Shown: in pieces, positions 23,990-25,638 of the stretch
Numbering within the stretch: the first letter of the stretch is position 1
How the letters are laid out: each line of letters begins with the position of its first letter
From: a virus
DNA length: 25,638 nt
Reading direction: 5' to 3' (one strand)
Virus record (IMG/VR): IMGVR_UViG_3300008450_003920
Span: 1-25,638 of that record
The notes under the pieces: generated by a model
Told to the model about the DNA's origin: nothing
Seen by the model: only the letters and a program-made list of their open reading frames with translations
Databases searched by the model: none
Position numbers and translations under genes: made by a program

Positions 23990-24022
23990 AAAAAAAAGCA
24001 CCATGCTGTTAAACATGGTGCT
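23990..24022 (-). terminator. Rho-independent terminator ending the early-type transcript
   Basis: On the minus strand AGCACCATG (24022-24014) and CATGGTGCT (24005-23997) form a perfect 9-bp stem around an 8-base loop, directly followed by a run of eight T. It lies about 78 bases past the stop of the 116-aa gene. Confidence 0.92.
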
Positions 24023-24099: not shown

Positions 24100-24450
24100 T
24101 TATGCCGCAGGATTGAGGTCGATCCTGTACTTGTGCAATTCATCGTAGTACGCTGTTTCAAGTTCATCAGCATCTGTAACGCCCTCAACTTGAAGTTGAT
24201 CTACGCGAGCAGCCGCACATTCAGCAGCCTGTTCAAACTGGCGGATGCGTTCTTCAAGTGTGGTAGCCGGCTTATATGTGTGCTGGCTCACCTCAGGACG
24301 CAGTTCTAGTAGTCGATCCACAACGCTGATGTTAGCATCAGTGTCTGCGTCAGCATCAAAAAGAATACGCATCATCATTGTGGCCATTTCTTCTACCTTG
24401 CGTTCGCGGGGCAAATTTGAAAATTCATTAGTAAAGTATCGGGTCTGCAT
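24100..24450 (-). CDS. Early-type hypothetical protein, 116 aa
   Basis: Start set at ATG 24450, preceded by TTGGAGACTTAGAC; an upstream in-frame ATG at 24480 lies in the leader hairpin loop and would add MLLHTLGDLD. The protein begins MQTRYFTNEFSNLPRERKVE, has an acidic middle (ILFDADADTDANISVVDRLL) and a long charged helix (TLEERIRQFEQAAECAAARV), ending DELETAYYDELHKYRIDLNP. No family recognised. It is driven by its own sigma-70 promoter (24494-24521) and is followed by a strong terminator, so it probably forms a short transcript, alone or as the last gene of the early run. Confidence 0.75.
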   Translation of the reverse strand: MQTRYFTNEFSNLPRERKVEEMATMMMRILFDADADTDANISVVDRLLELRPEVSQHTYKPATTLEERIRQFEQAAECAAARVDQLQVEGVTDADELETAYYDELHKYRIDLNPAA

Positions 24451-24469
24451 GTCTAAGTCTCCAAGTGTG

Positions 24470-24487
24470 TGTAGCAACATCGCTACA
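24470..24487 (-). promoter_or_regulatory. Leader stem-loop of promoter cassette copy 1
   Basis: TGTAGC-GATGTT-GCTACA: a perfect 6-bp stem with a 6-base loop, starting at the predicted transcription start. Identical to 25134-25151. It precedes the TTGGAGA ribosome site. Confidence 0.8.
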
Positions 24488-24493
24488 TTTATA

Positions 24494-24521
24494 ATAATAA
24501 CATCTTTTACGATGTTGTCAA
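24494..24521 (-). promoter_or_regulatory. Sigma-70 promoter, cassette copy 1
   Basis: TTGACA (24521-24516), a 16-base spacer and TATTAT (24499-24494), then TATAAATGTAGCG. The spacer holds a dyad ACATC-GTAAAA-GATGT not found in the other copies. The distance from -35 to the shared AAATGTAGCG is the same (25 bases) in all three cassettes. Confidence 0.85.
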
Positions 24522-24539
24522 CCTTTTTATGCGGCTTCT

Positions 24540-24746
24540 TTAGAAAATACCCTGTAAACTTTTGGATTCAATATCATTAAGTTCTCGCCGGATAATATAG
24601 GCAGGTATTCGCGTGCAAAGTCCAACATCCTTAGCACGGGACAACATACCTGCTTCTTCTATAGATATGTCATCAACGAATTTTGTATATTCATTTTCAT
24701 TAGCAATTGCTTTATAATCGTTAATCAATTGAGTAAGATTACGCAT
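24540..24746 (-). CDS. Early-type hypothetical protein, 68 aa
   Basis: Start set at ATG 24746 with TTGGAGAATGAA upstream rather than a TTG eight codons earlier. MRNLTQLINDYKAIANENEY is followed by TKFVDDISIEEAGMLSRAKD and VGLCTRIPAYIIRRELNDIE. Mostly helical and charged. No recognised family. It has its own promoter (24795-24822) and leader hairpin, and is followed by the next promoter within 20 bases of its stop, so each gene of this module can be expressed separately. Confidence 0.75.
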   Translation of the reverse strand: MRNLTQLINDYKAIANENEYTKFVDDISIEEAGMLSRAKDVGLCTRIPAYIIRRELNDIESKSLQGIF

Positions 24747-24763
24747 TTCATTCTCCAAGTTTC

Positions 24764-24787
24764 GTAACAAGCACTATTGCTCGCTAC
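24764..24787 (-). promoter_or_regulatory. Leader stem-loop of promoter cassette copy 2
   Basis: GTAGCGAGCA-ATAG-TGCTTGTTAC: a 10-bp stem that uses two G-U pairs and a 4-base loop. The loop sequence differs from the other two copies, but a hairpin is kept at the same place, which suggests that the structure matters more than the sequence. Confidence 0.75.
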
Positions 24788-24794
24788 ATTTACT

Positions 24795-24822
24795 ACTATA
24801 CGCTCTTTGCACTAAATGTCAA
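24795..24822 (-). promoter_or_regulatory. Sigma-70 promoter, cassette copy 2
   Basis: TTGACA (24822-24817), a 16-base spacer and TATAGT (24800-24795), followed by AGTAAATGTAGCG as in copy 3. Upstream, alternating A and T tracts (24823-24860) could act as an UP element. Confidence 0.88.
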
Positions 24823-24871
24823 CCACTTTTTTCAAAAAAGATGAAAAAAGATTTCTTTTAGAATCAAGAGG

Positions 24872-24898
24872 TTACGCAACCTGAAGTAGATTGCGTAA
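24872..24898. repeat. Inverted repeat TTACGCAA / TTGCGTAA
   Basis: Two perfect 8-base arms (24872-24879 and 24891-24898) with an 11-base loop lie between the 52-aa gene and promoter copy 2. Part of the left arm can also form a smaller hairpin (GGTT-ACGC-AACC), so two conformations are possible. No T-run follows on the minus strand. The stretch 24823-24956 holds no gene. Confidence 0.55.
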
Positions 24899-24942
24899 GT
24901 TGTTGATTTTGGGGGGCTTTTTTGTATATTTGTTCACGGGAG

Positions 24943-24965
24943 GTGGCGTATTGCGTTTACGCCAC
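24943..24965 (-). repeat. Inverted repeat over the stop codon of the 52-aa gene
   Basis: GTGGCGTA / TACGCCAC, 8 bp perfect with a 7-base loop that includes the end of the stop codon. No T-run follows on the minus strand, so it is not a classical terminator. It may protect the mRNA 3' end. Confidence 0.5.
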
Positions 24966-25115
24966 AACCGCATTCTGCATCTTTTCTGCTACAATGCGCT
25001 TCAAGTATGTGAATGGTACAGCATACAATCGCTGTAGTTCTGCTTGTGTAACTACAATACCATTACGCTCACAATGGTCCAAATACGCTTTTACAACTTT
25101 GATCTTGCTGTTCAT
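24957..25115 (-). CDS. Early-type small protein, 52 aa
   Basis: From ATG 25115 with ATTGGAGACCTTAA upstream to TAA 24957. MNSKIKVVKAYLDHCERNGI is followed by VVTQAELQRLYAVPFTYLKR and IVAEKMQNAVVA. The layout (helix, VTQAELQRLYAVPFTYLKRI) resembles a small helix-turn-helix, so a DNA-binding regulator is possible, but the match is by eye. Its own promoter (25158-25185) and leader hairpin precede it. Confidence 0.75.
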   Translation of the reverse strand: MNSKIKVVKAYLDHCERNGIVVTQAELQRLYAVPFTYLKRIVAEKMQNAVVA

Positions 25116-25133
25116 TTAAGGTCTCCAATTGAG

Positions 25134-25151
25134 TGTAGCAACATCGCTACA
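25134..25151 (-). promoter_or_regulatory. Leader stem-loop of promoter cassette copy 3
   Basis: TGTAGC-GATGTT-GCTACA, identical over all 18 bases to 24470-24487, located at the predicted 5' end of the mRNA and followed by a TTGGAGA ribosome site. Confidence 0.8.
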
Positions 25152-25157
25152 TTTACT

Positions 25158-25185
25158 ACTATACAGGATTTTGGGCATATGTCAA
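25158..25185 (-). promoter_or_regulatory. Sigma-70 promoter, cassette copy 3
   Basis: TTGACA (25185-25180), a 16-base spacer and TATAGT (25163-25158), followed by AGTAAATGTAGCGATG. A short A-tract and GG precede the -35 box, as in the other two copies. Confidence 0.88.
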
Positions 25186-25213
25186 CCTTTTTTTGTGTTG
25201 TTTTTTCACAACG

Positions 25214-25262: not shown

Positions 25263-25415
25263 ATGACCCCATTTGAAATACGCTTAGAATTACTAAAACT
25301 AGCACGAGACATACTTCAGGCTCGATCGAACAAACCTGAAGATATGCCCAGTAGCAGTGAAATTATTTTGGAAGCGGAACGTCTTAATCAATTTGTCAGC
25401 AACAAAGCAGTTTAA
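25263..25415 (+). CDS. Conserved marine-phage type small protein, 50 aa
   Basis: The only credible plus-strand gene: ATG 25263 to TAA 25413-25415. It begins MTPFEIRLELLKLARD and continues with SSSEIILEAERLNQFVSN, a helical protein. Small proteins starting MTPFEIRLELLKxAxD are, to my recollection, frequent in marine T4-like phages and of unknown function. The ribosome site is poor, and AATAAATATT lies directly before the ATG, so translation may depend on an AU-rich leader. The last 4 bases overlap the end of the convergent minus-strand gene. Confidence 0.75.
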   Translation: MTPFEIRLELLKLARDILQARSNKPEDMPSSSEIILEAERLNQFVSNKAV

Positions 25416-25638
25416 AGCACAGTAATCTTTAGTGCGGTGTAACCCCGTGTGGTCTTGGTGTTCTTGCTGAACCAACGATTGTCCACACCCATGTCACGCA
25501 GTTTCTGTTCCATTGCCTTAGCATCCAAACTCTCACGGTCTGCTACTGTGTATACCGTTGCGGCGTGTCCATCTTGTTCATAGCGGCCATTACCCAAGCC
25601 TTTGATTTCTTCTGCCAACATCTTTTCAATATTCTGCA
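25412..25638 (-). CDS. Hypothetical protein, 5' end outside window
   Basis: The frame is open to the right edge (upstream residues QNIEK precede the first Met at 25621), and no ribosome site lies before that Met, so the start is probably outside the window. The visible part is MLAEEIKGLGNGRYEQDGHA, then VADRESLDAKAMEQKLRDMG and a C-terminal YTALKITVL strand. It looks like a small alpha/beta protein; no family recognised. Ends convergently with the plus-strand gene, overlapping by 4 bases. Confidence 0.65.
   Translation of the reverse strand, partial: QNIEKMLAEEIKGLGNGRYEQDGHAATVYTVADRESLDAKAMEQKLRDMGVDNRWFSKNTKTTRGYTALKITVL

Follow-up and report, generated by a model that had tools for sequence, protein, structure and literature searches.

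Near one end of the window, by which we mean the whole 25,638-nucleotide stretch of DNA analyzed here, three minus-strand genes are each preceded by a cassette consisting of TTGACA, a spacer, TATAGT or TATTAT, a gap of 7 bases, a hairpin that begins with GTAGC, the ribosome-binding site TTGGAGA, and ATG. The window, a 25.6-kb virus record, contains terminase, portal, and tape-measure genes and is therefore read as a fragment of a tailed phage genome. All three cassettes were located as described in the initial annotation, with TTGACA starting at 25185, 24822, and 24521 on the minus strand and the spacer 16 bases long in every case, except that 7 bases (AGTAAAT, AGTAAAT, and TATAAAT in cassettes 1, 2, and 3, respectively) rather than 9 separate the -10 hexamer from GTAGC. 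The promoters span positions 25158..25185 (TTGACA-N16-TATAGT), 24795..24822 (TTGACA-N16-TATAGT), and 24494..24521 (TTGACA-N16-TATTAT), and the ribosome-binding sites 25122..25128, 24752..24758, and 24458..24464, all on the minus strand. The window contains exactly 3 instances of TTGACA-N16-TATWRT, compared with 0.03 expected from shuffles.

The hairpins of cassettes 1 (25135..25150, minus strand, at the predicted mRNA 5' end) and 3 (24471..24486, minus strand) both read GTAGC-GATGTT-GCTAC and, as had been claimed, are identical, with AAATGTAGCGATGTTGCTACAC in common. Cassette 2 carries a long hairpin of other sequence, GTAGCGAGC-AATAGT-GCTTGTTAC (24764..24787, minus strand), in which the G-U pairs noted earlier were also found: there are two in a 10-bp stem (counting an A-U pair at the base of the loop). 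These three hairpins are the only model matches above 14 bits in the window (21.1, 21.4, and 20.3 bits for cassettes 1, 2, and 3). RNA folding gave copy 2 a C-closed hexaloop, AAUAGU, and -13.3 kcal/mol (z -4.9), making it the only copy strongly more stable than shuffles; cassettes 1 and 3 have less stable hairpins (-8.3 and -7.0 kcal/mol), which, because their z scores are weak (-2.0 and -1.0), are unproven by energy alone. Copies 1 and 3 fold into 6 bp with the loop AUGU, the alternative being a C-closed hexaloop GAUGUU. Just 3' of the hairpin, the ribosome-binding site is mostly unpaired; it occupies the place directly after the stem, where a T tract is absent in all three cassettes, and none of the hairpins was called as a terminator.

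The genes behind cassettes 1, 2, and 3 encode proteins of 52 (24957..25115), 68 (24540..24746), and 116 amino acids (24100..24450), all on the minus strand. They had been judged unrelated by eye, and indeed no similarity among them was detected, nor did any of them, including the 52-aa product, match a family in Pfam or PHROG. On the same strand, a terminator-like inverted repeat with a weak T tract lies between genes 1 and 2 (24872..24898), and a strong intrinsic terminator (23997..24022) marks the end of the three-gene block, before the terminase genes.

Contig L012, which is 99.85% identical and runs past the window end, carries a fourth cassette (L012:5566-5637; TTGACA-N17-TATAGT, then CATAAGC-AATGAT-GCTTATG) just outside the window, before the ORF at 25412..25638 (minus strand), the 3' part of a gene that is cut by the window end; the initial count of three holds within the window, and the full set is larger. 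Relatives carry 3 to 5 cassettes each, so that the hairpin, whose loss from related phages had been named beforehand as the finding that would speak against the proposal, is kept. L013 (terminase 94%) has 4, namely the orthologous fourth cassette (loop AATAAC) and three others. The L009 phage has five, among them one with an AATGTT loop (L051:8095) and, on the opposite strand, GTAGCAGGC-AATAGT-GCTTGTTAC, in which an A-U and a G-U pair are swapped relative to copy 2 of the window. The distant relative L005 (terminase 47%, portal 26%), first found via a pattern match, has three with ATGTAG stems. Near or distant DNA matches to the early region of the window were not detected among GenBank phages.

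Cassette 2 of the window and cassette 1 of L013 lie in an 88%-identical 200-bp stretch and have identical hairpins with unrelated ORFs behind them, and therefore the cassette stayed while the gene was replaced. Behind cassette 3, by comparison, the gene has a relative behind an L013 cassette (46% identity over 57 aa) and, weakly, in L009. As judged from these alignments, gene and cassette are exchanged independently of each other, and the presence of an identical hairpin cassette before a different gene in L013 upholds the proposal of a portable expression module. A separate feature of some cassettes in these relatives (L013:1146-1213, L013:1462-1528, and L009:5367-5436; copies 2 and 3 of L013 and copy 2 of L009) is that the spacer between -35 and -10 holds CGCTACAT, an inverted copy of the hairpin's ATGTAGCG, which lies upstream of the predicted start and is unexplained by a role in RNA.

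The fourth cassette and copy 2 together suggested the core AAGC-AATNNY-GCTT. A -10/hairpin/GGAG pattern was found in 31 IMG/VR stretches, nearly all with promoter, hairpin, ribosome-binding site, and ATG, compared with 9 IMG/VR stretches, none with this layout, for the same pattern with the control loop TAANNY; the scans used exact patterns, so these frequencies do not estimate those in the population, and counts are inflated by related contigs unless these are merged. Pattern matches in L035, L036, L038, L039, L041, and L042, which resemble coding sequence and do not have the promoter-hairpin-RBS-ATG layout, were dismissed as chance. Because A/G-A-U had been required when the hairpin set was collected, loop preference was fairly assessed by an IMG/VR scan in which the promoter, the stem TAAGC/GCTTA, and the ribosome-binding site were fixed and the loop was left free: 15 distinct sites with an AAU loop were recovered among about 20 independent sites with the layout, the others being four single sites and one orthologous gene family with the loop GGUACA (10 contigs). 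The recurrent core across phages is C-(A/G)AUNNN-G, the loop positions being A/G, A, U, N, N, and mostly Y, and both GAUGUU (copies 1 and 3) and AAUAGU (copy 2) fit it. Neither this recurring AAU hexaloop nor its distribution among unrelated phages had been noted in the initial annotation. Among 20 terminator hexaloops from the same contigs, not one begins with AAU or GAU after the closing C; in a generic, mostly noisy loop census outside the seed matches, C-AAU was the commonest hexaloop start but accounted for only 3 of 47.

Bacterial genomes yielded 48 matches to the same pattern, with the outer pairs paired in 27, 15, and 18 of 46, and because this pairing is only partial the matches are taken to be mostly chance, with some real leaders among them. 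Blast matches in Aeromonas and Pseudomonas were discarded, as they had only the ribosome-binding site in common. The model had no match in T7, one weak match in lambda, and weak matches in T4, those inspected being without the cassette layout, and no Rfam family matched above its gathering cut-off (only far sub-threshold matches were returned). We found no description of the C-(A/G)AUNNN-G loop class in Rfam 15 or the open-access literature; 5' stabilizing hairpins as a kind are already known.

Across phages, base-pairing is conserved and the stem sequence is not. In 27 phage sites chosen on the inner four pairs only, the unselected outer three positions pair in 23, 22, and 19 sites, with 5-6 pair types each; the corresponding figure for the scrambled-loop control is 0 of 6 sites. 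The covariation score of 31 hairpins is 0.451, as against 0.156 for shuffled and at most 0.123 for slid alignments, and changes on both sides are seen in 7 of the 8 pairs (inner pairs being partly fixed by the searches). Departures within stems are G-U rather than A-C by 8 to 1, an excess that fits an RNA of the sense strand. The compensatory changes and G-U pairs seen across phages strengthen what had been a hint of selection on structure. In 18 of 27 phage sites the stem starts 5-7 nt after the -10 hexamer, where transcription usually begins and hence at the predicted 5' end.

Several phages carry the arrangement in many copies. L083 has at least 7 cassettes in 9.8 kb, with the stems TAAGC, CGGGGC, CACCTGGGC, and ATGAGGGGG, the first two both carrying AAU loops, and with a sliding-clamp/resolvase-like protein among the products of the genes behind them; the cultured Erwinia jumbo phage vB_EamM_Y3 has three. 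The 349-kb genome of the cultured Vibrio phage 2.275.O contains a repeated promoter, GCAACTAATGTTTTATANT, with 32 copies on one strand and 3 on the other when up to 3 mismatches are allowed; a hairpin follows 2-9 nt after the -10 in 16 of the 32 copies inspected, compared with 1.4 expected. The stems of these hairpins differ (for example, ATAAGC/TATAAGC, TGGGAAC, and TGTAGGAC), several of them enclosing AAU loops. This promoter is without TTGACA, and therefore the hairpin is not restricted to a single class of promoter, a point in favor of a role in RNA; the 32 copies of a single promoter, half with and half without a hairpin, also offer a ready internal comparison. Within the same phage (91.6-96.2 kb; L193, MG592671.1 70000-110000), the promoter is found in tandem copies 70-200 bases apart with no ORFs between them, some followed by GGGTTAGCT-type hairpins, possibly an array of short non-coding transcripts, and a feature annotated as a CRISPR spacer sits among the copies.

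That many unrelated phages have 5' hairpins, frequently with one and the same loop, probably reflects a shared device for keeping messages stable or controllable. It suggests a testable rule, namely, that hairpins of one loop class stand at the start of messages in phages from several unrelated groups, the cultured Vibrio and Erwinia jumbo phages among them. If the hairpin stabilizes RNA, these leaders would make up a natural parts list for expression, and if a factor reads the loop, they would represent a new layer of phage gene control.

With slightly better than even confidence, we propose that the 5'-terminal stem-loop shields the mRNA from 5'-end-dependent decay and is used as a portable module. 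A strong sigma-70-type promoter would start the RNA at, or within about two bases of, the stem-loop, beyond which would lie a short unpaired segment containing a good ribosome-binding site, and then ATG. The stem-loop would most likely guard the triphosphate end against RppH/RNase E-type (or RNase J-type) 5'-end-dependent decay and would also render the leader independent of the downstream gene, so that small genes could be exchanged behind the cassette. RppH and RNase E need single-stranded 5' ends, with Bacillus subtilis RppH needing at least two unpaired nucleotides (PMC3997798), and T4 gene 32 mRNA is stabilized by a 5' CUUCGG hairpin (PMC8948821). End protection in a portable unit is preferred because the predicted 5' end falls on the first stem pairs, an arrangement that is known to impede RppH and RNase E. 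The layout and its repetition, the conservation and covariation of the structure, the exchange of genes, and the recurrence in unrelated phages and behind different promoters can be read from the sequence; the start site, the stabilizing effect, and any additional role for the C-(A/G)AUNNN-G loop are what we infer. Points against end protection are that some promoters in these phages lack a hairpin (L012:3626, L012:2996, and half of the copies in the Vibrio phage), that cassettes with other loops exist (GUUUU, GUGUU, and ACUUUC), and that the stability of copies 1 and 3 is not exceptional given their composition. The AAU preference is also left unaccounted for, because simple end protection demands no particular loop.

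That preference hints at possible recognition by a factor, the main alternative or addition to end protection. Tentatively, a phage or host RNA-binding protein might read the 5' C-(A/G)AUNNN-G loop and switch the stability, translation, or transcription of all cassette genes jointly: the loop is kept while stems vary widely inside one phage (L083; Vibrio phage 2.275.O), AAU is strongly preferred in the free-loop scan, and the TAA loop yields no layout-conforming matches. However, with the motif present in phages that include those of Vibrio and Erwinia, such a protein, itself only hypothetical, could only be a conserved host protein or one that was re-invented; loops drift in the relatives of the window (GAUGUU, GUUUU, GUGUU), and T4, T7, and lambda contain no convincing match. 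We are equally doubtful of the corresponding general proposition that C-(A/G)AUNNN-G 5' hairpins constitute a phage RNA element that is widespread but hitherto undescribed, and that a conserved host (or phage) factor reads it, so that messages in dozens of unrelated phages are marked for stability or preferential expression. It is improbable that the hairpin is a translation insulator or standby element that keeps the leader from pairing with the ribosome-binding site and ensures uniform translation, with decay unaffected; its place just upstream of a mostly unpaired ribosome-binding site and the unrelated genes behind it would suit this function, which nevertheless leaves unexplained both the loop preference and the placement of the stem at the predicted +1 instead of elsewhere in the leader. 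Highly improbable is a DNA operator, an inverted repeat at +1 at which a repressor dimer would coordinate the cassettes. TGTAGC...GCTACA is palindromic, and the additional CGCTACAT in the promoter spacers of L013 and L009 would accord with such a site, but the arms change together, their spacing varies (5, 6, or about 12-13), and G-U is tolerated and A-C is not, and for these reasons the operator is disfavored; stems also differ between cassettes of one phage, and the fixed sequence and fixed half-site spacing of a repressor operator are found neither within nor between phages.

End protection in a portable unit can be compared with several known systems. T7 class III transcripts come from a phage promoter with a 5' hairpin that is repeated before several genes, much as in the cassettes, but the promoter is that of T7 RNA polymerase and the hairpin is another one, whereas the cassettes use sigma-70-type or other promoters. 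HK022 put and lambda boxB/nut are likewise RNA hairpins near early phage promoters; unlike them, the cassettes are without boxA or a second put stem-loop and have the ribosome-binding site and ATG directly after the hairpin, with no long antiterminated operon. The 5'-terminal mRNA-stabilizing stem-loops of Escherichia coli ompA and papA (Emory, Bouvet and Belasco 1992, as cited in PMC3997798) resemble the cassette hairpin, with its predicted 5' end, in standing at the very mRNA 5' end before a single-stranded ribosome-binding region, whereas the phage cassette is repeated before several unrelated genes and has a preferred hexaloop. The CUUCGG hairpins of T4 (gene 32 leader; PMC8948821) also lie between phage genes and favor a particular loop, and one of them, at a 5' end, stabilizes mRNA; the cassette loop, C-(A/G)AUNNN-G (GAUGUU, AAUAGU), is not a UUCG tetraloop and is tightly linked to the promoter and start site.

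Hairpin leaders of other kinds were also encountered. In ten contigs (L145, L148, L150, L151, L153, L156, L161, L163, L166, and L171), an orthologous gene starting AUGUACCC(C/A) has the 5' hairpin GTAAGC-GGTACA-GCTTAC, with stem ends that vary; in all ten, the GGUACA loop is a perfect complement of UGUACC at the start codon, and a possible interaction between loop and start codon could control translation. Leaders from Clostridia/Lachnospiraceae (L099, L110, L122, L123, and L132) consist of AAGCAATGGCGCTT followed by a second arm such as GGAGCGCC, with T-rich sequence in several, and resemble attenuators with two exclusive hairpins; an AAU loop is common to them. A further conserved Clostridia element (L097, L116, L118, and L139) comprises a TTGACATTAACAGAGTTGTTTAG-TATAAT promoter with one variable base, a TAAGC-AATTNY-GCTTA hairpin, and a 65-codon ORF that starts from TTG (LNEN...FMR). 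At L016:6178-6260, TTGACA-N16-TATAAT is followed by CACAAC-AATAAT-GTTGTG and more inverted repeats, with no evident ribosome-binding site or start codon close by, and this locus may encode a small non-coding RNA with the same type of 5' hairpin.
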